The notes under the pieces are model-generated. The model had not been told where the DNA came from, searched no databases, and saw only the letters and a list, made by a program, of their open reading frames with translations. The translations under genes and the position numbers were made by a program. Shown here piece by piece: positions 14,074-58,425 of a stretch of 64,000 nucleotides of DNA (within the stretch, counting starts at the first letter, position 1; the number at the start of each line of letters is the position of its first letter). This stretch comes from a bacterium BMS3Bbin13 (GTDB taxonomy: Bacteria; Pseudomonadota; Gammaproteobacteria; 21-64-14), in contig BDTW01000042.1 of assembly GCA_002897735.1 (NCBI GenBank), positions 44,133 to 108,132 on the forward strand. The letters are read 5' to 3'.

Positions 14074-14445
14074 TCAGTCGTTCCCGGGCGCAGGGGCCGC
14101 GGGGGACGAGGGGCTTTGTGCACCCGACCCGCAATTGCAGCGCGCCGACCACGAAACGATATGGCCGGGCGGCATCAGTGCTTCGATCAGCTCGAGAGCA
14201 CTTTCGACGACCTCCGGTTCGTCGAAGAACTCCACCACCAGCGGCAGGTGGGCGGTGAGGCGCAGCAGGTCGGCGGAGTGCACCACGCCGCGCGCGCCGA
14301 AACCGCTGATCGCACGGAACACCGTCATGCCATGCACGCGGCGGCGGTCGTGCAGAATCGAGAGGATCTCCTCGAGCAGCAGGTGATGATCGCGGTGGTC
14401 GCCCTCGACGAGATAGATGCGCACGACGGTGACGTCTTTGAGCAT
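14074..14445 (-). CDS. DUF190 (PII-like) protein
   Basis: MLKDVTVVRIYLVEGDHRDHHLLLEEILSILHDRRRVHGMTVFRAISGFGARGVVHSADLLRL pattern. Confidence 0.85.
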   Translation of the reverse strand: MLKDVTVVRIYLVEGDHRDHHLLLEEILSILHDRRRVHGMTVFRAISGFGARGVVHSADLLRLTAHLPLVVEFFDEPEVVESALELIEALMPPGHIVSWSARCNCGSGAQSPSSPAAPAPGND

Positions 14446-14492: not shown

Positions 14493-14867
14493 CTACAGTT
14501 TACGTGATAGATAGGCGCCGGCGAAGGCGGCGCTGAAGCCGATCACGACCGACAGGGTCACGTAGGCCAGCGCCGCCGCCAACCGACCGTCTTCGGCGAG
14601 CAGCAGCGATTCCATCGTGAAGGTGGAGAAGGTCGTGAACGCCCCGAGCCCTCCGGTGAGCAGCCCGGCGCGCAGTTCCGGTGAGACGACGACGCGTTCC
14701 AGGGTCTCGAAGAACAAAAAGCCCATCAGGAACGAGCCCAGCACGTTGATGACGAGCGTCGCCCAGGGGAAGCGATGCCCGGCTACCGTCTGTATCAGCA
14801 TCGTCATGCCGTAGCGGGCCCACGCTCCGGCCACGGCGCCGAGGCTCACCGACAGGAACAACCACAT
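14493..14867 (-). CDS. crcB: Fluoride efflux channel CrcB
   Basis: GAVAGAWARYGM, FPWATLVINVLGSFLMGFL, GGLGAFTTFSTF motifs. Confidence 0.93.
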   Translation of the reverse strand: MWLFLSVSLGAVAGAWARYGMTMLIQTVAGHRFPWATLVINVLGSFLMGFLFFETLERVVVSPELRAGLLTGGLGAFTTFSTFTMESLLLAEDGRLAAALAYVTLSVVIGFSAAFAGAYLSRKL

Positions 14868-15118: not shown

Positions 15119-17239
15119 TCAATTTATCAGCATCAGGGCCGCGGCGAGCAGCAGCGCCAGTACCACACTCGAGAGGATGAAGGCGGCGTAGAGCGTCACC
15201 CGCCCGCGATGCATGCGCGCAAGCCCGCTCGATGCGGCGTTCGCCGCGGCGACCAGCGGGCGCAAGGTCCAGCGCTCGGCGACGTGCACGAGACGGGTTT
15301 CGCGCTCCAGGCCTATCCGGAACACGCCGTGCTGGTGCTGTTGCTCGTCGACTATGGGGTGGAGCAGGGTATCGAAGAGTACCCGCACGGGAGCGGAGAA
15401 GGCGGTGGCGGTATAGAGCATCTCCGGCTGCAACTGCGACAGGCCGGCGTCCCAGGCCCGCACGCGCCGCGTCCGTGCTCCGCGCAGCAAGCGGACCGCG
15501 AGCCAGACGCAGAGCAGCGCGATGGTGATCACGGCGAAGGCGAGGGCGGTGGACATGGCGAAGACCACCGGTGTGGCGGCGCCGCCCGAATGCACGACGA
15601 CCAGCGAGCGCAACGGCAGCACGCCGCGCCCGATCTCGGCGCCTATCCCCGAAAGCGCGGTTGCCAGGCCGGCGGGAAGACCTTGGGGGATGCCGAAGAA
15701 GGCGGGTACCAATGCGTTGGTGGGATCGGCGCCGGCCAGCGGGTGCACCAGTGCGCCGAGCAGTGGAATGACGGCGGTCGCGGAGACGCCGAGCGCCAGG
15801 CACACGCCCGCCAGCAGCCACATCGGCAAGGATGCGCTCATCGGCGCGACGCGCGCGTTGGCGGCATAGGACGAACGTGGCCGGCCGAGCAGTGCGGTTC
15901 CGGCGAGCGACACGAAGCAGGTGAGCGCAAGTCCCGCGGTAAGCGCGAGCAGCGCGCCGGAGAGAGCGAAGACGAGGCGAACGGGCACCGAAGCGATCGC
16001 CACCACGCGCAACAGCGATTCAAGCACCAACCACTCACTTACGAAGCCGTTGAACGGCGGCAGCGCGGCGATTGCGATCGTGCCGATGAGAAAGGCCGTG
16101 GCGAACATCGGTACGCGTCGCATGAGCCCGCCCAATTGGTCCAGATTGGCGGTACCGGTCGTTTGCTCGATGCCGTCGGCGCCGAGAAAGAGCAGTGTCT
16201 TGAAGGCGGAGTGGTTGAGCATGTGGTAGAGCCCCGCCACCAGCGCGATGGCGCCGAGCACCGGGTGGCCGTAGGCGACGAAGGCGAAACCGGCACCGCT
16301 TGCCGCCACCACGATGCCGAGGTTCTCGATGGAACTCTCGGTGAGCAGGCGGCCGATGTCGCGTGCGAGGATCGCGTAGAGGATGCCGAGCAGCGCGGTG
16401 ACGGCGCCGGTCACCAGCACCAGCAGCCCCATCCACGGTTCGTGGATCGCGAGCGGGCCGTCGATGGTCCATAGTGCGAACACGCCGAGGTTGATGGTTG
16501 CTCCGGAGAACAGCGCGCGCGCCGCGGGCGGCGCGGCGGCATAGCCGTCGTTCATCCAGAGATTGACCGGGGCGATGCCCGTTTTCACTCCGAAGCCGTA
16601 GAAGGTGAGCAGAAAGCCGGTCCAGCGGATAGCCGGCGGCAGATCGCCCGCGCGTTGGGCGATCACGGCGAGATCCGGGCTGCCGGCGCCGGCGGCGAGT
16701 ATCAGCAGTCCGGCAAGCCCGGCGATGGTACCGGCCTCGCTGAACGCGATGGTGCTGAGCGACGCCCGCCAGCGTTGCTCGCCCTCTATGCGAAAGCTCA
16801 CCAGGCCCCACAGCGCCAGCGACATGATCTCCCAGGTGAATATGAAGGAGAGGACATCGCCCGCGGTAAGCACCGCGAGCAGGGCCGCGAACAGCACCGT
16901 GTAGAGGGTGAGAAACAAAACGGCCCGCCGGGGCGGTTCACGCCCGGCGCCGGCGGTCGCGCCCGCGAGCGTGGCCGCGTATACGCAGGCGGCGATAACG
17001 ATAAAGAAGCCTCGCAACGGATTCAGCGTAAACAGCATCGATCCGAGCAAAGACAGGGGGACATGCGCCGACAGCGTGTGCCCCAGCATGGCCAGTACAC
17101 CCGCGGCCAAGGCCAGCGCCGCGGCGCTCCATCCGGCCAAGCGGTGCAGGTTGCGCCCGATCGGAGAGCCGGCCAGGACGGCACCTCCCAACGCCGCGAG
17201 CAAGGCAACGAAAACCAAAGTAAACAAGGTCCAGATCAT
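15119..17239 (-). CDS. NuoL/HyfB-like proton-conducting subunit (copy 2)
   Basis: Polytopic; SSIENLGIV, HMLNHSAFKTLLFLGADGI, LPPFNGFVSEWL motifs of HyfB/HycC/NuoL proteins. Confidence 0.9.
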   Translation of the reverse strand: MIWTLFTLVFVALLAALGGAVLAGSPIGRNLHRLAGWSAAALALAAGVLAMLGHTLSAHVPLSLLGSMLFTLNPLRGFFIVIAACVYAATLAGATAGAGREPPRRAVLFLTLYTVLFAALLAVLTAGDVLSFIFTWEIMSLALWGLVSFRIEGEQRWRASLSTIAFSEAGTIAGLAGLLILAAGAGSPDLAVIAQRAGDLPPAIRWTGFLLTFYGFGVKTGIAPVNLWMNDGYAAAPPAARALFSGATINLGVFALWTIDGPLAIHEPWMGLLVLVTGAVTALLGILYAILARDIGRLLTESSIENLGIVVAASGAGFAFVAYGHPVLGAIALVAGLYHMLNHSAFKTLLFLGADGIEQTTGTANLDQLGGLMRRVPMFATAFLIGTIAIAALPPFNGFVSEWLVLESLLRVVAIASVPVRLVFALSGALLALTAGLALTCFVSLAGTALLGRPRSSYAANARVAPMSASLPMWLLAGVCLALGVSATAVIPLLGALVHPLAGADPTNALVPAFFGIPQGLPAGLATALSGIGAEIGRGVLPLRSLVVVHSGGAATPVVFAMSTALAFAVITIALLCVWLAVRLLRGARTRRVRAWDAGLSQLQPEMLYTATAFSAPVRVLFDTLLHPIVDEQQHQHGVFRIGLERETRLVHVAERWTLRPLVAAANAASSGLARMHRGRVTLYAAFILSSVVLALLLAAALMLIN

Positions 17240-17265
17240 GCGCGCCTTATCCTTCGGCCGGGAGG

Positions 17266-19374
17266 TTACAAGGAAAATTTCATAGCCATCAGCGCGGCGA
17301 ACAACGTCGCCAGCACCCAGGTGGCGTAGAGCGTGACGGCGCCTTGGTGCAGCCAGGCCAGTGACCGCCCAATCGCCTTCACCGCATAGGCCACCGGGTT
17401 CAGGAACAGACGATCAACGAGGTGGACTACGCGCGTTTCGCGTTCGAGGCCGAGGAGAAAGCCGCCTTGAGAGTGTTGCCGTTCTTGCACGACGGGGCGC
17501 AATAGGGACTCGAAGAGCACCCGCACGGGGGCGGAGAAGGCGGTGGCGGTGTAGCCCATCTGCGGTTGCAGGCACGGCAGGCCGGCGTCCCAGACGCCGA
17601 CGCGGCGGGTGCGGCGCCGACGCAGCAGGCGCGTCGCACCCCAGGTGCTCAGCAACAAAAGGGCGATCACCGCGAATGCAAGTGCGGTGGACATCGCAAA
17701 GACCACCGGTGTGGCGGCCCCGCCCGAATGCACCACCACCAGAGAGCGCAACGGCAGCACGCCGCGTCCGACCTCGGCGCCTATCCCCGACAAGGTGGTG
17801 GTCAGTCCGGCGGGCAGCCCATGAGGTGTGCCGAAGAAGGCCGGGACCAGCGCCGCGGTGGGGTTGGCGCCGGCCAGCGGTCGAACCAGCCCCCCCAGCA
17901 GCGGAATCACCGCGGTGGCCAGTACGCCGAGCCCGAAACAGACCACGACGAGTCCCCACATCGGAATGGTCGCGCTTACCGGTGCCGGCGCCGCTGCGGC
18001 GACCACTTCGGAACGCGGCCGCCCAAGCAGCGCCGAGCCCGCCAGCATTACGAAGCAGGTCATCGCGAGCCCGACGGTCAGTGCGAGCATCGCCCCCGAG
18101 AGCGCGAAAACGGCGCGCACCGGCTGCGAGGCGATCTCCACCACTCGCAACAGCGATTCGAACAGCAGCCACTCGCTGACGAAGCCGTTGAAAGGCGGTA
18201 GTGCGGCGATCGCCAGCGCGCCGATGAGAAAGGCCGTGGCGAACACCGGCATGCGCCGCATGAGTCCGCCCAACCGATCCAGGTCGTGGGTGCCGGTCGC
18301 CTGGTCGATGCCGGCCGCCCCCACAAACAGCAAAGTCTTGTAGGCGGAGTGGTTGAGCATGTGGTAGAGCCCGGCTACCAGCGCCATAGCGCCGAGCACC
18401 GGGTGGCCCAGCGAGACAAAGGCAAAGCCCGCTCCCAACGCCGCCACCACGATCCCCAGGTTCTCGATCGAACTTTGCGCAAGCAGCCGTTTCAGATCAC
18501 GCTCGGTAAGCGCATAGACGATACCGGTCAATGCCGTCACCGCGCCGACGAAAAGAACGAGCAGCGCCATCTGTGGGTGATGGATCGCGATGGGACCGTC
18601 GATGACGAAGAGTGCAAACACGCCGAGGTTGAGCGTCGCGCCGGAGAGAATCGGTGAAACCGATCGCGGGGCCGAACCGTGCGCCTCGGGGAGCCAGGCA
18701 TTGACGGGCACGATGCCGGCCTTGACGCCGAAGCCGAAGAACGTGAGCAGAAAAGCGATCCACAATGCGCCCGCCGGCAGTTGATTCCCCGCCGCCGCGA
18801 TGGACGACAACGCCGTGCTATGTGCATGGGAGGCGAGTATGAAAAGGCCGGCCATGCCGGCCAGCGTTCCGGCTTCGCTCAACATCAGTGTCAGATAGCC
18901 CGCCGCGACCGGGCGCGCTTCCCGAGAGTGGAAGGTGACCAGCCCCCAGATAGCCAACGCGCTGATTTCCCAGAAGAAGACGAAAGATACGATATCGGCC
19001 GCGGTGAAGAATGCGAGCATGCCGGCGTATAATATCGCGACCAGGGTGAGAAACAGGGCCGCCCGATGGCGCGGGTACTGCGCCGCGTCGCGAACCAGCA
19101 GGGGAGTTGCGGCCAGGAATACGACAGCGGTGACGATGAGAAACAACCCCCGCAGCGGATTCAGCACAAAGCCGATCGGTTCCAGCAACGAGAGGGGACC
19201 GAGGGAAAAGGTTGCGCCGCCGGTCGATATGGCCTCTACCCCGGCGACGAACACCAATCCGCTCGCCGCGAAAAAGGCGCACCCGCCCGCCCAGGATCGA
19301 GCCCGGGCCGGCGAAATCCAGGCCGCTACGATACTCGCGGCCAGAGCGGCGAAAGCGGTAGCGAACCACGTCAT
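17266..19374 (-). CDS. NuoL/HyfB-like proton-conducting subunit (copy 1)
   Basis: Same motifs (SSIENLGIV, HMLNHSAYKTLLFVGAAGI, LPPFNGFVSEWL); start MTWFATAFAALAAS at 19374 overlaps the upstream stop. Confidence 0.9.
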   Translation of the reverse strand: MTWFATAFAALAASIVAAWISPARARSWAGGCAFFAASGLVFVAGVEAISTGGATFSLGPLSLLEPIGFVLNPLRGLFLIVTAVVFLAATPLLVRDAAQYPRHRAALFLTLVAILYAGMLAFFTAADIVSFVFFWEISALAIWGLVTFHSREARPVAAGYLTLMLSEAGTLAGMAGLFILASHAHSTALSSIAAAGNQLPAGALWIAFLLTFFGFGVKAGIVPVNAWLPEAHGSAPRSVSPILSGATLNLGVFALFVIDGPIAIHHPQMALLVLFVGAVTALTGIVYALTERDLKRLLAQSSIENLGIVVAALGAGFAFVSLGHPVLGAMALVAGLYHMLNHSAYKTLLFVGAAGIDQATGTHDLDRLGGLMRRMPVFATAFLIGALAIAALPPFNGFVSEWLLFESLLRVVEIASQPVRAVFALSGAMLALTVGLAMTCFVMLAGSALLGRPRSEVVAAAAPAPVSATIPMWGLVVVCFGLGVLATAVIPLLGGLVRPLAGANPTAALVPAFFGTPHGLPAGLTTTLSGIGAEVGRGVLPLRSLVVVHSGGAATPVVFAMSTALAFAVIALLLLSTWGATRLLRRRRTRRVGVWDAGLPCLQPQMGYTATAFSAPVRVLFESLLRPVVQERQHSQGGFLLGLERETRVVHLVDRLFLNPVAYAVKAIGRSLAWLHQGAVTLYATWVLATLFAALMAMKFSL

Positions 19375-20108
19375 GGCTCGAGGGCGTCGCTGCCCCGTCC
19401 CGGTTGCAACTGGCCGGCGGCGAGCAACAGGCCATGCGCGATCGCGAGCGGCGGGGGCGGGCAGCCGGCGATGACGAGGTCCACGGGCACCACATCTCCC
19501 GCGCCGCCGATGCTGGCGAAACTCCGGCCGAAAACGCCGCCGTTGATTGCGCAGACACCCATCGCCACCACCCGCTTCGGCTCCGGCATCGCCTCGTAGG
19601 TCTTGCGCAACGGCAGGCGCATCGCCTCGGTGACCGGCCCGGCGACCAGCAACACGTCGGCATCGCGCGGCGTGGCCGTGACGAAGATACCGTAGCGGTG
19701 CAGGTTGTACGGCGGCGCGTCGATCAGGCGCACCTCGCCCATGCAAGCGCCGCAAGCGCCGGCGTCGAGGTAGCGCACGTTGACCGAGTGGCGAAAGCGG
19801 TGCGGCAAGGGGTTGGACGCCGCATCACGCCATGCGCCCCATTGCGCATCTTCCCGCCATGCGAGATCGCCGTCGGGCCGGCGACAGCGCTGACAGTGCA
19901 CACAGTGCACGAAATCCACGCCGACCGCATCCCCGCGCGCCGCTATCGCTCCGCCGGGGCAGATTGCGGCCATCCGCGCCGCGGCCTGTGCCGCGAGCGG
20001 CTGCGAGACCGGTCGACCGGGGGTCGCGCCCGCCGGCAGGTGCTCGGCGTCGAGGCCGGATTCGCTGCGGATACCGTCGATCAGACTGTGTGCTACCCAG
20101 TTGGCCAT
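19371..20108 (-). CDS. HyfI/HycG/NuoB-like Fe-S subunit with N-terminal ferredoxin-like Cys motif
   Basis: CGACMGE...GVCAINGG...AGCPPPP keeps the [4Fe-4S] ligand pattern; N-terminal ICPGGA...CVHCQRC motif; ATGA overlap with the upstream CDS. Confidence 0.85.
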   Translation of the reverse strand: MANWVAHSLIDGIRSESGLDAEHLPAGATPGRPVSQPLAAQAAARMAAICPGGAIAARGDAVGVDFVHCVHCQRCRRPDGDLAWREDAQWGAWRDAASNPLPHRFRHSVNVRYLDAGACGACMGEVRLIDAPPYNLHRYGIFVTATPRDADVLLVAGPVTEAMRLPLRKTYEAMPEPKRVVAMGVCAINGGVFGRSFASIGGAGDVVPVDLVIAGCPPPPLAIAHGLLLAAGQLQPGRGSDALEP

Positions 20109-21673
20109 CAGCGATCGTTCTCCGCTACCGAAAGTCCGAAGCTTGCCATGATGATCGGGAAATCCTGGAATGTGGCACCCTCCACCGCGCGGTGGAAGGC
20201 ATGCCAGTTGCGGTACCCCGGCGTGCCGGCCGACCAGCGTTGCACACGGCCGTCCGCGTCGAGTCGCAGCCAGTCGAAGAATGCCCCGGACGGCGCCTCG
20301 GCCCAGCCGAGGGCGGAACCCTCGCACGGCTCCCAGCCGGTGGCCGCCGCACCGCTCGGCAGGGCGTCGAGCGCCGCGCCGATCAACGCACCCGAGTCCT
20401 CGATTTCATGGAAGAACACCCGCATGCGCGCGTAGCCGTCACCCTCGGATTCCACCGCCACCGTGGGAGGCAGGCACGCGTAGCCGGCATAGGGCAGGGC
20501 GCAGCGCAGGTCCAGGGAACGGCCGGAAGCGCGTCCGACCGGGCCGACGGTGGCGTAGCGCGCGGTGAGCGCCGCATCGAGCGCGCCCACCTCCTCGATG
20601 CGATCGAGAAAGCTCGAACTCGCCTCCAGCAGCCGCCGGTATCGGCGTATACGTGTCACGATCAAGGGGAGTTCGGCGCCGAGCGTCGCCAGCGCGCCGG
20701 CATCCAGGTCGCGAGCGAGTCCGCCGGGGGCGATCAGGCCGAACAAGTAACGGTGGCCGCCGACGCGTGCGGCGAGGCGCAGCAGCGCCTCTTCCAACTC
20801 CTGGCCCATGGCCTTTCCGACCGCCAGGCCGGTGGAACCGGCAAGCTCCGCCATCACCGCCATGTGGTAGCGCATGCGCTCGAGCTCGGCAAGCACCACG
20901 CGCAGGCGACGCGCCCGCTCGGGTACCACCGTGTGCGAGATGCGTTCCGCCGCCTGGCACAAGGCCAGTGCGTGCGCCACGGCGGCATTGCCGCTGAAGC
21001 GTTCCGCGAGCAGCAGCACGGCGGGCACCGGCAGGCCTTCGGCGATCTTCTCCACCGCCCGGTACTTATAGAACAGTCGTGTGTGGGCGAGGCGGATCTG
21101 TTCGCCGGGACCTTCGAGCACGTAGAGCCCCGCCTCGAGGTAATCGCCCCACACCGGTCCGACCGGAAAAACGACGCTCCCGGATTCGGTGAGTTGGCGC
21201 CGCGGGTGCCACGTGGAGGCACGCTCGGCGCTCGCCGATGGGGTCGTCGCGGCGTAGCGTCGGCACATCGGCGCGACGGCCTCCGGCCAGACGTCGTCGT
21301 GGAGCACGAAGTCCCCGAGGAAGGGATGTCCGGAAAAATGCAGCCCGAACAGATCCTCGGCCTCGCGCTCGTACAAGTCGGCCGCATAGATGCGGTCGCT
21401 GATGGTCGGCAGTTCCCCGCTTGCGCTCGTCCCGATCGAGACGAGCACGTGGTCCGCCGGATGGAAGAAGAAATAATGCAGGGTAAAGCCGCAATCGAGA
21501 TCCTCGGCGAGCAGTGTCGCAAACTCGAAACCGTACTCGTGGGTCAGCAACTCCACGAGGACCGAAACCGCTCCGGGCACCGCGGCAAGTTCCAGCCGAT
21601 CTTGCTTGAGCCGGGATGATTCGAGGCCCGGATGATCGGCCAGCGCCTCGGCCAATGTCGTGAGCCGACTCAC
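20108..21673 (-). CDS. HyfG/HycE/NuoCD-like large subunit lacking NiFe ligands
   Basis: NuoC-like N-terminus (DLYEREAEDLFGLHFSGHP) and NuoD-like body (KIAEGLPVPAVLLLAERFSGNAAVAHALALCQAAERI); GTG start overlaps the upstream TGA. Confidence 0.87.
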   Translation of the reverse strand: MSRLTTLAEALADHPGLESSRLKQDRLELAAVPGAVSVLVELLTHEYGFEFATLLAEDLDCGFTLHYFFFHPADHVLVSIGTSASGELPTISDRIYAADLYEREAEDLFGLHFSGHPFLGDFVLHDDVWPEAVAPMCRRYAATTPSASAERASTWHPRRQLTESGSVVFPVGPVWGDYLEAGLYVLEGPGEQIRLAHTRLFYKYRAVEKIAEGLPVPAVLLLAERFSGNAAVAHALALCQAAERISHTVVPERARRLRVVLAELERMRYHMAVMAELAGSTGLAVGKAMGQELEEALLRLAARVGGHRYLFGLIAPGGLARDLDAGALATLGAELPLIVTRIRRYRRLLEASSSFLDRIEEVGALDAALTARYATVGPVGRASGRSLDLRCALPYAGYACLPPTVAVESEGDGYARMRVFFHEIEDSGALIGAALDALPSGAAATGWEPCEGSALGWAEAPSGAFFDWLRLDADGRVQRWSAGTPGYRNWHAFHRAVEGATFQDFPIIMASFGLSVAENDR

Positions 21674-23127
21674 GGCGTACCCCCGAGCAGGGCGGCGGCC
21701 TGGTGGACCAGCCGAAGCAGCGGCGGCGGCAGATAGAAGCCGAACACCAACAGCGGCAGGAAGGCGATCGCCATCGCAAACACGCTGCTCACCGGAAGCG
21801 GGTGGGCGGGAGCGCGCTCGGGCGCGGGTTGGCGAAACACGATGCCGCCGATCTGATACACGATGGCGATGAAGGCGACCACGATAAACACGGTCAACAG
21901 GCCCGTGGCCAGGTACTCGCCGGCCCCGAACCCGGCGCGCAGAATCTGAAACTCGGAGATAAAGATGGCGAAAGGCGGTGCGCCGGCGATGGCCAACGCA
22001 CCCAGCAGCAATGCCCAACCGACCAGCGGCGAACTGCCGAGGAGTCCGCTGCTGCCTCGTATACGCTGCGTGCCCAGGGTGATTGCGGCAAGACCCGCGG
22101 CATAGAAGCAGAATGACTTGGTCAGGGCATGGGCGAAAAGCTGGTACACCGTACCCAGATGGGCGGCGGGGGTGCCCAGTCCGCAGGCGGTGAGGATGAT
22201 GCCCATATGCTCCACCGTGGAGTAGGCGAACAGGCGTTTGAAATCGGTGACCTGAAGAATGAGGAACGCGGCCGCTCCCACCGAAATGAGGCCGGCGACC
22301 AGGTACCAGGCGTTTGCATCGGGGATGCCGGGGTTACGCGCCAGCGCCGGGTACAGGCGCAGAATCATGTACAGCGCGGCGCTGGTCTCCACACCGGAGA
22401 GCAACGCACAGACCGAGGCCGGCGCCTGGCTGTGCGCATCCGGGAGCCAGGTGTGCATCGGAACCAGGCCGGCCTTGGCGCCGAAGCCGACCAGCGCGAG
22501 CACGAAGCCGGTGAGCAGCACCGCAGGCGGTATGTGCGGCGCGGCGGCGACCAGTCCCGCCCAGCTTGGCGGTTGGCCCGCATGGTGGACGCCGTAGTAG
22601 ATCACCAGGATGCCCAGCAGCGCGATCATCGCGCCCATGGTGGTGAGGGCGACGTACTTCCAGGCCGCTTCCAGGGCCTCGGCGCGGTCTTCGTAGGCCA
22701 CCAGGAAGGCGGAGAAGATGGTGGTGAGTTCGATCGCTATCCACATCACCGCAAGGTTGGTGAGCAGGGGCACCGCCAGCATGGAAGCGAGAAAGAGATT
22801 GAACAGCGGGTAATACTGGCGGTAGCGGGGCGCAACGCGGCCTGCCTCGCGGTGGCGGGCCTCGAGGTAACCGATCGAATACAGCGAAGCGGTCACGCCC
22901 ACGAAGGCGACCAGCAGCAGATACAGCGCACCCAGCGCATCCAGCGTAAACCCGCCGTGCGCCCCCACCAGCGTTCCGGCCGCCATCACGTCCCGCGCGG
23001 CGACGACGGCCAGACCCAGCACCGCCAGGGCGGAGGCCAGGGTGACCCACGGCGCGGCGCGGCGGCCCGCCACGGTGAGCAGCGCCGCGCCGATCGGAAG
23101 GATGAGGATGAGAGGGAGTATCATCAA
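21670..23127 (-). CDS. HyfF/NuoM-like membrane subunit
   Basis: Polytopic; YSTVEHMGIILTACGLG, HALTKSFCFYAAGL, GAPPFAIFISEF motifs. Confidence 0.88.
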   Translation of the reverse strand: MMILPLILILPIGAALLTVAGRRAAPWVTLASALAVLGLAVVAARDVMAAGTLVGAHGGFTLDALGALYLLLVAFVGVTASLYSIGYLEARHREAGRVAPRYRQYYPLFNLFLASMLAVPLLTNLAVMWIAIELTTIFSAFLVAYEDRAEALEAAWKYVALTTMGAMIALLGILVIYYGVHHAGQPPSWAGLVAAAPHIPPAVLLTGFVLALVGFGAKAGLVPMHTWLPDAHSQAPASVCALLSGVETSAALYMILRLYPALARNPGIPDANAWYLVAGLISVGAAAFLILQVTDFKRLFAYSTVEHMGIILTACGLGTPAAHLGTVYQLFAHALTKSFCFYAAGLAAITLGTQRIRGSSGLLGSSPLVGWALLLGALAIAGAPPFAIFISEFQILRAGFGAGEYLATGLLTVFIVVAFIAIVYQIGGIVFRQPAPERAPAHPLPVSSVFAMAIAFLPLLVFGFYLPPPLLRLVHQAAALLGGTP

Positions 23128-23807
23128 CGGCGCTCGTGCAAGGTGGCCATGTGTCCGACGCGGGTGCTGCCGGTCACCGCTCCTATGGAACGCAGGAGCA
23201 GCCCGATGACCAACGCCGCAATGGGGACGTCCACCGCCGCGGCGATCTCGGCGATGATGGTCAGGTCATGAACGATCGAGATCGATGCGAAAAAGGCGCC
23301 GCTTTCCATGATCAGCAGGCCCATGAGTTGGGCCACGCCCTCGCGGCGTACCGCTACCGTGAAGGCCCCGAAGAAGATCGCTATGAGGCCGGTAGGTAAA
23401 TTGATCGCCGCGAAGGGCCGTGCGGGGATGGCATGGACCAGCGGCTGACTCACGATCCAGGCGGCGAACGCCAGCCCGGCGGCGATCAACAGCGACAGGG
23501 GGACGGAAAGCACGTGGTCGACTTCGCGCCGCCCGTAGACCTTGGCCCCCGTCGCCCAGACCAACACCAACGGCACGGCCACCACTTTGGTACTGAAGGT
23601 GATCAGCGCCACCCAGGCGAGATGGGTGCTGTGCAGGGCCACGGCGAGTACGACGGCCGAGGCGCTGAGCATCAGCGCATGCGACATGAACAGATACAGG
23701 GTGCCGCGCATCTGCCGTGCCACGATCACGCCCAGGCCGGCGAGCACGAACAGCGCGGCGAAAAAGCCGTCGAACGCGCGGGCGAGTTCCAGGGCATGCG
23801 GGCTCAC
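23124..23807 (-). CDS. HyfE-like membrane subunit
   Basis: Polytopic HyfE-like protein; position between HyfF-like and HyfC-like genes with ATGA overlaps. Confidence 0.82.
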   Translation of the reverse strand: MSPHALELARAFDGFFAALFVLAGLGVIVARQMRGTLYLFMSHALMLSASAVVLAVALHSTHLAWVALITFSTKVVAVPLVLVWATGAKVYGRREVDHVLSVPLSLLIAAGLAFAAWIVSQPLVHAIPARPFAAINLPTGLIAIFFGAFTVAVRREGVAQLMGLLIMESGAFFASISIVHDLTIIAEIAAAVDVPIAALVIGLLLRSIGAVTGSTRVGHMATLHERR

Positions 23808-24766
23808 GAGAGTCCCACCAGTCTGACGCTCATCGCGAACACGCAGATCACGAAGGCGGTGGCCAGGAACTCGCTGATGCGGAACAGGCGCAACTTCGCG
23901 AGGCTCATCTCGACGGTCGCCAGCACCACCAGAAACACCAGTATCTTGGCGAGCACCAGGGGGATGGCGAGGAAGATGTTACTCCAGGCCATGGTGGTCG
24001 CGAGCCCCCAGGGGGTGAGCAGCACGTTGAGAAAGATGATCGCGAGCAGCATCAGTTTCATCGACCCGCCCCATTTCATCAGGGCGGCGCCCGGCCCCGA
24101 ATACTCGAGGTTCTTGGAATGTCCGATCATGGCGATCTCGGTTTTGCCGGCGGCGTTGTCGACCGGAATGCGGTCGTTCTCGGCGAGGATGAGCATGAAG
24201 AAGGCGACCAGCACCAGCAGGTGCGCGGGCTCGAGGCTCGACGCCCAGGACGCCGAGAATGCGGCGTTTACCGCGTAGGGGATGGTCGAATTGGCGATAT
24301 AGGAGACGCTGAAGAATACCATGATGAACACGGGCTCGGAGAGAAAGCCGACCATGCGCGTGCGGCTTGCCCCGACCGGGCCGTATACGTTTCCGGTATC
24401 CATGGCCGCCAGTGCGACGAAGAATCCGCCGAGCGCAAGGAAGAAGCCGGCCGCGACCATGTCGCCCATGAAGGCGAAGAACAGCGGATAGGCGGTGAGC
24501 GCCGGTACCAGCAGGACGACGAAGATCGGCATCACGAACTGTATCCGCGGCGCAAAGCGAAACACCCAGGAAGAATCTTCGGAAATCAGCTCTTCCTTGG
24601 TGAAGAGTTTGGCGATGTCGCGGTAGGGCTGGAAGATGCTCGGGCCGTGCTTGCCCTGCAACATCTCCTCGATGCGCGCGAGCACACCGCTTACCAGCGG
24701 TGAGAAGAAGACCAGGAAGGCGGCTTGGAGAAGATTGGCGAGCAGATGATGAACGAGATCCGGCAC
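23804..24766 (-). CDS. HyfC/HycD/NuoH-like membrane subunit
   Basis: SGVLARIEEMLQGKHGPSIFQPYRDIAKLFTKE and AENDRIPVDNAAGKTEIAMIGHS signatures of the NuoH/HycD family. Confidence 0.93.
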   Translation of the reverse strand: MPDLVHHLLANLLQAAFLVFFSPLVSGVLARIEEMLQGKHGPSIFQPYRDIAKLFTKEELISEDSSWVFRFAPRIQFVMPIFVVLLVPALTAYPLFFAFMGDMVAAGFFLALGGFFVALAAMDTGNVYGPVGASRTRMVGFLSEPVFIMVFFSVSYIANSTIPYAVNAAFSASWASSLEPAHLLVLVAFFMLILAENDRIPVDNAAGKTEIAMIGHSKNLEYSGPGAALMKWGGSMKLMLLAIIFLNVLLTPWGLATTMAWSNIFLAIPLVLAKILVFLVVLATVEMSLAKLRLFRISEFLATAFVICVFAMSVRLVGLS

Positions 24767-25215
24767 ACACCCTCCTCACACGGGGCACCATTCCCGCGGC
24801 TTAAACAGCTGCCACCTGTAGCAGGAGTTATCAGCCGAGAGGGCGATTCCGGCGCGCGCCGCGGCGAACTCCTTCGCCGTTGGGCAGAGATTACCCCCGA
24901 CCCCCGCGCCGATGCAAGCATCGTTTCACTCTTGGCGGCCCGCAATTTAAATTGCGTCTGAAAAGAAAAATCTCGTGGGATGAGTTGAGTAAGATCGGAG
25001 GTGTTCAAGGACTCCGCTCTCATTACCCGCGAGGTGAGATGCGAAGCGGATCGTGCGGAGCGCTCCGCCCTTCAATCTCGAATCCTCCACCGAGACGCCC
25101 ACCTCGCAAGGGGGCGGCTATTGACAGGGGGAGTGCTTTCATGCTCCGGAATTTCCGAAAAGACGGCTGCTTCGGTGCGCGAGTGATATCGGTCGAAGGA
25201 ACGATAGGCTGCGGA

Positions 25216-54673: not shown

Positions 54674-57600
54674 TCAGTCCTTCGGGGGTTCGGGCGGCTG
54701 ATCCACGCCGGCGTCGTGCGCATAGCGCCGGAAGCGCGCGTCGACGTCTTCCTGGGCGGCGCGCAGAAGCCGCTCGGCATTCTCGGGGTTCGTTTTCCAC
54801 AGCAGGCTGAAGCGCGTCTCCGTCAAGGCGAAGTCCCGGTACGGGATCGACGGGCGGGCGTAGTCGAGGCGCAGCGGATTCTTTCCCTGCGCGGTGCGTC
54901 GCGGGTCATAGCGCAACAGCGGCCAATGCCCGCTCTTCACCGCCAGCGTCTGCTGGCGCAGGTTGTTCGCCAGGTCCACGCCGTGCGCGATGCACGGGCT
55001 GTAGGCGATGATCAGCGACGGTCCCGGATAGGATTCCGCCTCCAGGAACGCACGCAACGTCTGCACGTCCTTGGCGCCGAACGCCACCTGCGCCACGTAT
55101 GCGTTGCCGTAGTCCATGGCGATGCGGGCGAGGTCCTTCTTGGCGCCCGGTTTCCCGGCCGCGGAGAACTTCGCGACCGCCCCGCGCGGCGTGGCCTTCG
55201 ATGTCTGGCCGCCGGTGTTCGAATAGACCTCGGTGTCCAGCACCAGAATGTTCACGTCGCGGTCCGAGGCGAGCACCTGGTCGACCCCTCCGAAGCCGAT
55301 GTCGTAGGCCCAGCCGTCACCGCCGATGATCCATACGCTGCGCCGGATCAGGAACTCGGCGAGCGATTCGAGCCGTCGCGCGGCGGGGTCGTCCAGCTCG
55401 CGCAGCCGTGTGCGCAGTTGCGCGATCCGCTCGCGCTGTTCATGGATGCCGGCCTCGGTGGATTGATCGGCGCCGGTCAGGGCGTCGATCGGCTCGTCGC
55501 CGATCGACGGGCGCAACGCCTCGAGCAGGACGCGCGCCTGGCGGGCCTGCTGGTCGATCGCGATGCGCATTCCCAGCCCGAACTCCGCGTTGTCCTCGAA
55601 CAGCGAGTTGGACCATGCCGGGCCGCGGCCCTCGGCGTTGGCGGTCCACGGCGTCGTCGGCAGATTGCCGCCGTAGATCGAGGAGCATCCGGTCGCGTTG
55701 GCGACCACCATGCGGTCCCCGAAGAGCTGGGTGGCCAGACGCAGATAGGGCGTCTCCCCGCAGCCCACGCACGCGCTGGAGAACTCGAACAGCGGCTGCA
55801 GCACCATGGAGCCCTTGATGGTCTCGCGGCGCAGCCGGGCGCGGTCGTACTCCGGGAGCGACTGGAAGAATGCCCAGTTGGCGCGTTCCGCCTCCTGCAG
55901 CGGCGCGTGCGGCGCCATGTTGAGTGCCTTGCGGTCGGGATCGCGCTTGTCGCGGATCGGGCAGATCTCGACGCACAGGCCGCAGCCGGTGCAGTCCTCG
56001 GGGGCCACCTGGTAGCTGATGTGCAACCCGGGCTCGAAGTCCCGGCCCTTGACCGGCACGTGCTTGAAGCTCGCCGGGGCGGCATCGGCGAGTTGCGCCG
56101 GGAACAGCTTGCTGCGGATCGCCGCGTGCGGACACACGAACGGGCACTTGCCGCAATGGGTGCACAGGTCCGGCTCCCATACCGGGATCTCGACGGCCAG
56201 GTTGCGCCGCTCCCAGGCCGCGGTTCCGAGCGGATAGGTGCCGTCGACCGGCAGGGCGCTGACCGGGAGGGCGTCGCCGCGCCCGGCGATCAGCTCGCCG
56301 GTGAGGCGGCGCACCGATTCCGGGGCCTCGGCGGGCAGCGGCGCAGGCCGGTCGAAACCGCCGGTGACGCGTCCCGGAACCGCGACCCGGTACAGGGCCA
56401 CCAGCGCCGCCGAGATCGCACGCAGGTTGGCCTCGACGATGTCCGGTCCGCGCTTTCCGTAGGTCTTGCGTACGGCATCGCGGATCGCCTCGATCGCCTC
56501 GTCGCGCGGCAATACCCCGCTGATCGCGAAAAAGCAGGTCTGCATGACCGTGTTGACGCGCGTCCCGAGACCGTTCTCCTCGGCGATGCGGTAGGCGTCG
56601 ATGGCGTGGAACTCCAGGTGTTTTTCGAGGATCCGGCGCTGCATCTCGCGCGGCAGGGTGTCCCATACGGCGTCCGGTGCGGCGGGTGAGTTGAGCAGGA
56701 ACACACCGCCCGGCGCGGCATGGGCGAGCACGTCGTAGCGCTTCAGAAACTGCGACTGGTGACAGGCGACGAACTGCGCCTCCTCGGTGCCGATCAGATA
56801 CGGCGCCCGGATGGGTTGCGGGCCGAAGCGCAGATGGGAGACGGTGACCGCGCCGGCCTTCTTGGAGTCGTAGACGAAGTAGCCCTGCACGTGCAACCCG
56901 GTTGCACCGCCGATGATCCGGATGGAGTTCTTGTTCGCGCTGACGGTCCCGTCGGAGCCGAGGCCGTAGAAGACGCAGTGCGTCGCGGAGTCGCCGGCCT
57001 CGGTGCGGAAGCGTGCGTCCCACTCCAGGCTGGTGTGGCTCACGTCGTCGTGGATCCCGATCGTGAAGGGGTGGCGCGGGCGTTCGCGGCGCAGCTCGTC
57101 GAACACCGCCTTCGCCATGCCGGGGGTGAATTCCTTGGACGAGAGCCCGTAGCGCCCGCCCGTCACCACCGGGAACTCCTCCGGCCGCGGCCCGTCCTGC
57201 GTCCAGGCGCGGGCGAGCGCCGTGGCGACGTCCTTGTAGAGGGGCTCGCCGTCGGCGCCGGGTTCCTTGGTGCGGTCGAGTACCGCAATGCGACGCACGC
57301 TCCGCGGCAGTGCGGCGAGGAACCGCCCGGCATCGAACGGCCGGTACAGGCGCACCTTCAACACACCGACCCGCTCGCCGCGGGCGGTGAGGTGGCGGAC
57401 GCTTTCCTCGACGGTCTCGGCGCCGGAGCCCATCAGGATCACCACGCGCTCGGCGTCGGGGGCGCCCACGTAGTCGAACGCCCGGTATACGCGCCCGGTG
57501 AGTGCGGCGAAGCGTTCCATCACCCCCTCGACGATCCCCGGCATGGCCTGGTAGTAGGGGTTGACGCGCTCGCGACTCTGGAAGTACACGTCCGGATTCT

Positions 57601-58261
57601 GGGAACTGCCGCGCAGCACGGGATGCTCCGGGGACAGCGCACGGGCGCCATGCTCCGCGAGGCGCGCGGTGTCGATCATTTCCGCCGCCAGTTCTTCGGT
57701 CACGGGCTCGATGTCGTCGATCTCATGCGAGGTGCGGAAGCCGTCGAAGAAGTGGACGATGGGGATGCGCGACTCCAGTGTGGCGGCCTGCGCGATGAGT
57801 GCGAGGTCGGCGGCCTCCTGGACGGAGTTCGAGGCGAGGATCGCGAAGCCGGTGGCGCGTGCCGCCATCACGTCGGAGTGGTCGCAGAAGATCGACAGGG
57901 CGTGGGTGGCGAGCGAGCGGGCCGCCACGTGGAAGACCGCCGGCGTCAGCTCGCCGGCGATCTTGTACATGTTCGGCAGCATCAGGAGCAGGCCCTGCGA
58001 ACTGGTGAAGGTGGTGCTCAGTGCACCGCTCTGCAGCGCGCCGTGTATTGCGCCGGCCGCGCCCGCCTCGCTCTGCATCTGCACGATCTCGGGGACCGCA
58101 CCCCAGAGATTGGTCCGACCCTGCGTCGCCCACGCATCGGCCAACTCGCCCATGGGGGAGGCGGGGGTGATCGGATAGATCGCGATGACCTCGTTGGTCA
58201 GGTAGGCGATACGCGCGACGGCCTCGTTGCCGTCGAGAATGGCGGTACTCCGGTGCGCCAT
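54674..58261 (-). CDS. nifJ: Pyruvate:ferredoxin (flavodoxin) oxidoreductase
   Basis: AIYPITPASPMGELADAWA; 4Fe-4S motifs CTHCGKCPFVCPH and CTGCGLCVEICP; TPP-domain GGDGWAYDIGFGG; SACVGCGETPYLRL. Confidence 0.97.
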   Translation of the reverse strand: MAHRSTAILDGNEAVARIAYLTNEVIAIYPITPASPMGELADAWATQGRTNLWGAVPEIVQMQSEAGAAGAIHGALQSGALSTTFTSSQGLLLMLPNMYKIAGELTPAVFHVAARSLATHALSIFCDHSDVMAARATGFAILASNSVQEAADLALIAQAATLESRIPIVHFFDGFRTSHEIDDIEPVTEELAAEMIDTARLAEHGARALSPEHPVLRGSSQNPDVYFQSRERVNPYYQAMPGIVEGVMERFAALTGRVYRAFDYVGAPDAERVVILMGSGAETVEESVRHLTARGERVGVLKVRLYRPFDAGRFLAALPRSVRRIAVLDRTKEPGADGEPLYKDVATALARAWTQDGPRPEEFPVVTGGRYGLSSKEFTPGMAKAVFDELRRERPRHPFTIGIHDDVSHTSLEWDARFRTEAGDSATHCVFYGLGSDGTVSANKNSIRIIGGATGLHVQGYFVYDSKKAGAVTVSHLRFGPQPIRAPYLIGTEEAQFVACHQSQFLKRYDVLAHAAPGGVFLLNSPAAPDAVWDTLPREMQRRILEKHLEFHAIDAYRIAEENGLGTRVNTVMQTCFFAISGVLPRDEAIEAIRDAVRKTYGKRGPDIVEANLRAISAALVALYRVAVPGRVTGGFDRPAPLPAEAPESVRRLTGELIAGRGDALPVSALPVDGTYPLGTAAWERRNLAVEIPVWEPDLCTHCGKCPFVCPHAAIRSKLFPAQLADAAPASFKHVPVKGRDFEPGLHISYQVAPEDCTGCGLCVEICPIRDKRDPDRKALNMAPHAPLQEAERANWAFFQSLPEYDRARLRRETIKGSMVLQPLFEFSSACVGCGETPYLRLATQLFGDRMVVANATGCSSIYGGNLPTTPWTANAEGRGPAWSNSLFEDNAEFGLGMRIAIDQQARQARVLLEALRPSIGDEPIDALTGADQSTEAGIHEQRERIAQLRTRLRELDDPAARRLESLAEFLIRRSVWIIGGDGWAYDIGFGGVDQVLASDRDVNILVLDTEVYSNTGGQTSKATPRGAVAKFSAAGKPGAKKDLARIAMDYGNAYVAQVAFGAKDVQTLRAFLEAESYPGPSLIIAYSPCIAHGVDLANNLRQQTLAVKSGHWPLLRYDPRRTAQGKNPLRLDYARPSIPYRDFALTETRFSLLWKTNPENAERLLRAAQEDVDARFRRYAHDAGVDQPPEPPKD

Positions 58262-58425
58262 GGCGGCCCTTCTCGAATTACATCGGGGATGTGATGGACG
58301 GCGGGAACCCGGGCGCGACAACCGACCCCGCGCCCCGTACGGCTACTGTAGAGATCGGCGTGCGGGGCGGCATTGACGCCGGTCAAGAACCGCAGACGGG
58401 GGGGGCCGCGGTGCCCCGGTTCCGG

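Follow-up and report, generated by a model that had tools for sequence, protein, structure and literature searches.

A fluoride riboswitch precedes a complex I-like operon without NiFe ligands in a gammaproteobacterium and its relatives: a candidate redox-driven proton pump

In a window of 64,000 nucleotides from the gammaproteobacterium BMS3Bbin13 (GCA_002897735.1; contig BDTW01000042.1, positions 44,133 to 108,132), seven co-directional minus-strand genes (15119-24766) encode a membrane complex related to Hyf hydrogenases and to respiratory complex I, and a fluoride riboswitch lies directly in front of them. Read directly from the sequences are the riboswitch, the gene set, the loss of the NiFe ligands, conserved cluster and antiporter residues, and a riboswitch linkage that holds throughout a clade of relatives. 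Induction, electron donor and acceptor, pumping and coupling to the export of fluoride (F-) we infer from these, and we suggest, with moderate confidence, a proton pump that is induced by fluoride and driven by redox energy, and that would offset the entry of hydrogen fluoride (HF) and power F- efflux. The riboswitch and the genes, in order of transcription, are:

24815-24887, minus strand: fluoride riboswitch aptamer (RF01734, crcB motif), 37.2 bits over the full model (1-64), gathering score 34
23804-24766, minus strand: gene A, NuoH/HycD/EhrB-like membrane anchor, 320 aa, GTG start (PF00146, 2.9e-29; best solved relative HycD, 7z0s_D, 1.2e-36)
23124-23807, minus strand: gene B, HyfE-like membrane subunit, 227 aa (NF008556, 1.2e-13), constant in position in all operons
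21670-23127, minus strand: gene C, HyfF/NuoM-like antiporter-type subunit (PF00361, 2.1e-47; HyfF, 7.4e-99)
20108-21673, minus strand: gene D, NuoCD/HycE-like large subunit without NiFe ligands, 521 aa
19371-20108, minus strand: gene E, NuoB/HycG-like small subunit, 245 aa (PF01058, 9.6e-25)
17266-19374, minus strand: gene F, HyfB/HycC-like antiporter-type subunit (NF005086, 1.5e-125; HycC, 7z0s_C, 1e-54)
15119-17239, minus strand: gene G, second HyfB-like subunit (NCBIfam match; synteny)

The genes form one string, with overlaps of 4 nt between A and B, B and C, C and D, and E and F, an overlap of 1 nt between D and E, and a gap of 26 nt between F and G. An earlier reading of the same DNA, made from its letters alone (the sequence-only reading), had described these seven Hyf/complex I-like genes, and we confirm them at the same coordinates, with Pfam and NCBIfam matches to NADHdh, hydrogenase-4 membrane subunit E, HyfF, a fusion of Complex1_30kDa and 49kDa, Oxidored_q6 and, twice, HyfB. 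The riboswitch, absent from that reading, was found by an Rfam scan of the whole window, 48 nt 5' of gene A. It lies directly upstream of the operon and on the same strand, as expected for a member of the fluoride regulon, and no second fluoride riboswitch was found in the host genome (2.69 Mb). A strong terminator-like site of the upstream gene (25248-25225) separates that gene from the operon, and a promoter scan found no sigma-70-like promoter. In the minimum-energy structure of the leader, the purine run before the start codon is paired, which would fit translational control, but the z value of -0.96 supports no claim.

A large-subunit scan of 84,980 species genomes yielded 17 further loci, from metagenome-assembled genomes (MAGs) labelled Rhodanobacteraceae, Oceanospirillales, Salinisphaera, Desulfobacterales, Syntrophobacteraceae, other Deltaproteobacteria, Acidobacteria, Nitrospirae, Bacillota and Actinomycetes, and whole-genome searches added G041, G166, G251, G374, G224, G451 and G478. 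The relatives are thereby spread over MAGs of Gammaproteobacteria, Deltaproteobacteria, Acidobacteria, Nitrospirae, Bacillota and Actinomycetes. All 26 operons with upstream DNA have a fluoride riboswitch 5' of gene A on the same strand; in three of them (L013, L014 and L018) the riboswitch end and the remaining operon are on two contigs of one genome, with the join inferred, and two operons cut by contig ends (L002 and L110) are outside this count. G041 and G251 contain two divergent copies of the complex each, with the riboswitch at both. As a control, 44 whole genomes with other group-4-like or NiFe-less large subunits gave no fluoride riboswitch within 100 kb of the large subunit, while 10 of the 44 have one somewhere in the genome. 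We preferred this control to one based on locus flanks, which is weak, most flanks being of 1.5 kb.

The synteny survey and the phylogeny, both proposed as checks by the sequence-only reading, returned a conserved six-gene core behind a fluoride riboswitch and a single supported clade. Wherever the contig is long enough, the order A-B-C-D-E-F is constant, and gene G, the second HyfB copy, occurs only in the window genome and G166. In the large-subunit tree, all switch-linked sequences fall on one side of one branch (support 97/90, 98% of bootstrap trees). This fluoride clade splits into subclade A, the type found in the window, and subclade B, with 32-35% identity to the window type; sister to the whole clade stands a further NiFe-less family, with a second complex of the host among its members.

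Gene D aligns with Escherichia coli HycE (7z0s_E; phmmer E = 9.8e-49), and the four NiFe ligands of HycE, Cys241, Cys244, Cys531 and Cys534 (numbering of Cys531, and of Asp529 below, after PMC9474812), correspond to Ser227, Ala230, Ser515 and Glu518, so that none of the four cysteines is left. Cys531 and Cys534 were placed with a MAFFT alignment and the common '...DR' end, the HMMER alignment ending just short of both. The two former sites are:

20984-20995, minus strand: former L1 site, with CGIC replaced by S227-G-N-A230 (SG[NTS][AS] in most relatives), from HycE and family alignments
20120-20131, minus strand: former L2 site, with the DPCxSC cysteines replaced by S515 and E518 (G513-L-S-V-A-E518), from alignments

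Clade-wide, the residues found in place of the two L1 cysteines are mostly Ser/Thr and Ser/Ala, and those in place of the L2 pair are Ser/Thr and Glu, Asp or Gly; two of the four ligands are kept in L010, one in L013 and none in all other members. The identical motif scan recovers CGIC and DPCxSC in true group-4 hydrogenases. All subclade A members whose end is complete share the C-terminus FQDFPI..A[ST][FY]GL. The AlphaFold2 model of gene D (predicted local distance difference test, pLDDT, 87) has HycE as its closest fold (7z0s_E, TM 0.89). Since both the alignment and the model match HycE, gene D is predicted to have the hydrogenase large-subunit fold with the metal ligands gone. Judged by its residues, the former NiFe pocket is rebuilt: the quinone His/Tyr positions of NuoD in complex I are not His/Tyr in gene D, K203 is invariant in the fluoride clade, and an invariant Gly takes the place of the canopy aspartate (HycE Asp529), a residue reported to be strictly conserved in the whole superfamily, complex I included (PMC9474812). 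The claim that the large subunit had lost both NiFe-binding motifs is therefore borne out by the alignment of 20108-21673 with HycE, another check proposed by the sequence-only reading; neither displaced CxxC pairs elsewhere in the subunit nor an additional NiFe large subunit within the operon were found, either of which that reading had named as evidence against its claim.

Besides gene D, just two large-subunit relatives were found in the host genome, a NuoD (C8) and the second NiFe-less, Hyf-like complex (G000:C38:24288-25580, L103). The latter also occurs in G001 (L104), that is, in the host genome and its genus; it ends in VPDFPVCNKSVNGSYSGHDL, is sister to the fluoride clade, and no riboswitch was found beside it. 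In a separate set of group-4 [NiFe] large subunits from the phylum of G101 (L063, L065, L067, L068 and L071; L061 single), in-frame TGA codons occupy both L1 cysteines (ERI-U-GI-U-GYIHS) next to a normal L2 (DPCFSC), and these are candidate double-selenocysteine L1 motifs.

The small subunit retains all four cysteines of the proximal cluster (C119, C122, C186 and C216), in agreement with the earlier claim that its 4Fe-4S motifs are kept. The CxxC..C..C pattern, with hydrogenase-type CxxC spacing, is present in 27 of 27 small subunits, and AlphaFold2/Foldseek matches of gene E are HycG and MbhJ. The N-terminus of gene E contains a one-cluster ferredoxin-like domain (C50, C69, C72 and C75), which the earlier reading did not mention. 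Subclade A has one 4Fe-4S set here (C50-P, CxxCxxC) and subclade B the full two-cluster pattern; among the clade members examined, the domain is missing only from L015. Because no separate NuoI/HyfH-type gene is found in the conserved six-gene core, the fused domain is likely the point of electron entry. Elsewhere in the window, about 30 kb from the complex, a long open reading frame (54674-58321, ~1200 aa) resembles pyruvate:ferredoxin oxidoreductase by eye and might supply reduced ferredoxin.

Subunits C and F match MrpA/MrpD. Invariant residues are K218, H333, K337 and E392 in subunit C (24 sequences) and K218, H342, K346 and E401 in subunit F (27 sequences), the Lys/His/Glu pattern expected of putative proton-moving antiporter-type subunits. 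In the large subunit, the HycE proton-path residues His284, Arg395 and Glu437 are kept as H270, R381 and E423, with a single E423 change in the clade, and the HycE loop Glu193 corresponds to E180 in 25 of 28 sequences (roles of these residues in PMC9474812). In L009, L011 and L012, the change of E180 to Q goes together with loss of the glutamate of transmembrane helix 5 (TM5) in HyfB and HyfF, a coordinated change of the proton path.

Downstream of gene G, two more genes follow:

14493-14867, minus strand: crcB/fluC fluoride channel gene (PF02537, 4.6e-27; TIGR00494 above cut-off)
14074-14445, minus strand: gene for a DUF190 protein (PF02641, 5.2e-23)

Both were absent from the earlier reading, and crcB is the only CRCB match in the host genome. 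Gene G and crcB are 251 nt apart; a terminator scan detected no terminator-like site between them, though crcB may have a promoter of its own. The complex is followed by crcB in L101 and L106 as well, and has it nearby in L011 and L017; the DUF190 gene recurs beside crcB in L106, L017 and L011. Several copies of the complex sit in fluoride islands with enolase, Usp, MutS-like pairs, MFS, dynamin-like genes and extra riboswitches, the enolase genes adjoining the complex in L011 and L017. Voltage_CLC proteins, which by their motifs may or may not be fluoride-selective, were found in 23 of 25 host genomes and are candidates for a classical CLC-F channel in hosts lacking crcB. Pairs of MutS-V domain proteins adjoin the complex in L106 (12785-16078), where they have their own fluoride riboswitch in front, and in L007 (15588-18802, the second protein recognized by eye). 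A dynamin-like GTPase gene lies directly 3' of the complex in two distant hosts (L010, 14708-16492; L017, 14680-16449).

In the proton pump that we suggest, fluoride would bind the leader RNA and switch the operon on, as in known fluoride riboswitches. A soluble low-potential donor, most likely ferredoxin, would pass electrons through the ferredoxin-like cluster of subunit E to the proximal [4Fe-4S] cluster and from there, in the remodelled pocket of subunit D, to an acceptor that is most likely quinone, while the NuoH-like subunit and the antiporter-like C, F and G would pump protons outward. HF diffusing inward would split into H+ and F- inside the cell; the complex would expel the H+, making the interior more negative, CrcB would release the F-, and pump and channel together would achieve net HF export. 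We propose that the operon supplies both together. Fluoride entry as HF has been linked to acidification, with dependence on the proton-motive force at the core of its toxicity, and Na+/H+ antiporters are the second commonest class of fluoride-riboswitch genes (PMC11139923). In acidophiles, an inside-positive potential favors anion entry (PMC12831704), so a passive CrcB-type channel should gain from an electrogenic H+ pump. The sequence-only reading had proposed an ion-translocating redox module with a substrate other than H2; the module and the NiFe loss are supported, but the link to fluoride through the riboswitch and crcB had been missed, and of its candidate reactions formate is now disfavored, ferredoxin as donor is plausible, and quinone, sulfur or another compound may be the acceptor.

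Several points weigh against this pump. The riboswitch scores only modestly, at 37.2 bits where the threshold is 34; both the NiFe ligands and the complex I quinone Tyr/His pattern are lacking in the pocket, with the canopy Asp turned into an invariant Gly; the Acidobacteria members L009, L011 and L012 are devoid of the TM5 acidic residue in HyfB and HyfF and of the loop glutamate; and CrcB was not found in 13 of 24 host genomes. Because of these 13 hosts, and as far as their genomes indicate, the partnership with CrcB cannot be general to the clade, and in these hosts either F- must leave by a different route or the complex must have a broader role.

The hosts without crcB, which are many, would also suit a ferredoxin:quinone (or other) oxidoreductase that acts as a fluoride-tolerant stand-in for central energy metabolism, keeping electrons flowing while fluoride blocks enolase and other targets, with pumping as a mere by-product and no special role in F- export. 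The enolase genes adjoining the complex in L011 and L017, the ferredoxin-like domain and the oxidoreductase-like frame 30 kb away agree with it as well. We consider it unlikely, since in the window, L101 and L106 crcB belongs to the gene string of the complex, and since the host, with its NuoD-type gene (C8), probably has an ordinary complex I at its disposal.

The matches of subunits C and F to MrpA/MrpD, and the frequency of Na+/H+ antiporters among fluoride-riboswitch genes (PMC11139923), could indicate an Mrp-like cation/proton antiporter for pH homeostasis under fluoride, whose redox arm is vestigial or regulatory. This seems quite unlikely: the proximal cysteines in 27 of 27 small subunits and the ferredoxin-type cysteines in all members but one, over several phyla, point to electron transfer under selection, and the conserved six-gene core has no small Mrp subunits. 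A bolder version of the proton pump, in which complex I-type machines across phyla were rebuilt for fluoride defence with new chemistry in the pocket, and provide the main extrusion in hosts without CrcB by redox-driven movement of F- or HF equivalents, we regard as improbable. Decidedly improbable is the complex itself being a primary pump of fluoride or HF-linked anions, even though the strict riboswitch linkage fits it and it would explain the hosts (13 of 24) in which CrcB was undetected. The conserved charged residues match those of H+ pumping subunits, most hosts carry CLC-type proteins, which may be F- selective, and the MAGs are incomplete; moreover, we know of no complex I relative that transports anions. 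A carbon-concentrating (DAB-like) role, considered because of the NuoL-like subunits, was dropped, as the operon has no DabA-type gene.

HypD is needed for maturation of the NiFe site. It is missing from 14 of 25 hosts, among them the window's own, whose genome is 97% complete, and the single-contig complete genome G374; the lack of maturation genes that the sequence-only reading saw in the window extends, for HypD, to the whole genome. A genuine formate hydrogenlyase (FHL) or hydrogenase in fluoride-stressed fermentation is hardly credible in spite of the overall homology to FHL and of the name in use, as no clade member keeps more than two of the four NiFe ligands, the window complex keeps none, HypD is missing as said, and no formate dehydrogenase gene is among the identified operon genes; we rejected it as a NiFe hydrogenase on ligands and HypD. 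The association between the crcB motif and 'formate hydrogen lyase' genes was noted in 2010 (Weinberg; PMC2864571) and repeated in a 2024 review, which explains these genes as fermentation (PMC11139923), so the general association of riboswitch and genes is already published. The NiFe-site loss, the single clade and the six-gene module were not found in the literature searched. Published accounts of the fluoride regulon (crcB, eriC, enolase, mutS) read these genes as FHL, but the fluoride clade cannot perform that reaction at a NiFe site. Given the lost ligands and the missing HypD, the name is, on sequence grounds, wrong for the biochemistry of this clade, which is predicted to be unable to produce or consume H2 at a NiFe site.

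Among known systems, E. coli FHL/hydrogenase 4 (7z0s) is the closest solved relative for the large, small, NuoH-like and HyfB-like proteins; in contrast to it, the fluoride operon has no NiFe ligands and no FdhF/HycB/HycF-type genes, HypD is missing in most hosts, and control is by a fluoride riboswitch. Of the features of group 4 [NiFe] hydrogenases, the proximal [4Fe-4S] ligands are present, but the four NiFe cysteines and a host HypD are not. Energy-converting hydrogenase-related (Ehr) complexes are defined as homologous complexes without NiFe ligands (PMC6349859), and the window complex is one of them. The Geobacter Ehr (GSU0739-45 and relatives) likewise combines a NiFe-less large subunit with HyfB-, HyfE-, HyfF- and NuoH-like membrane subunits and two HyfB-like genes (PMC13194489, PMC7894505). 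Ehr is, however, a loose label, whereas the defining features of the fluoride clade are its linkage to the riboswitch and the fusion of a ferredoxin domain to its small subunit.

The sulfane sulfur reductase MBS of Pyrococcus furiosus (6u8y) is also NiFe-less, passes on ferredoxin electrons and pumps ions, and its chemistry is based on a shortened proximal loop with three Cys ligands (PMC7684303). The fluoride clade, in contrast, keeps the hydrogenase-type CxxC spacing in all members, which disfavors MBS-like direct catalysis at the proximal cluster, and its operons have none of the Mrp small subunits of MBS. With respiratory complex I it shares NuoB/C/D/H/L/M homologues, the NuoCD fusion and conserved antiporter residues, but has no NADH module and no NuoI gene; a CxxC (C119xxC122) replaces the tandem CC of the N2-type cluster, and the quinone Tyr/His positions are not kept.

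If the complex is indeed a redox-driven proton pump, it would represent a new role for the complex I superfamily, that of an ion pump dedicated to fluoride stress, and would give NiFe-less Ehr-like complexes a concrete physiological setting. Acidophiles and bioleaching are settings in which it could matter, as passive F- channels should work poorly there, given HF entry and an inside-positive membrane potential.

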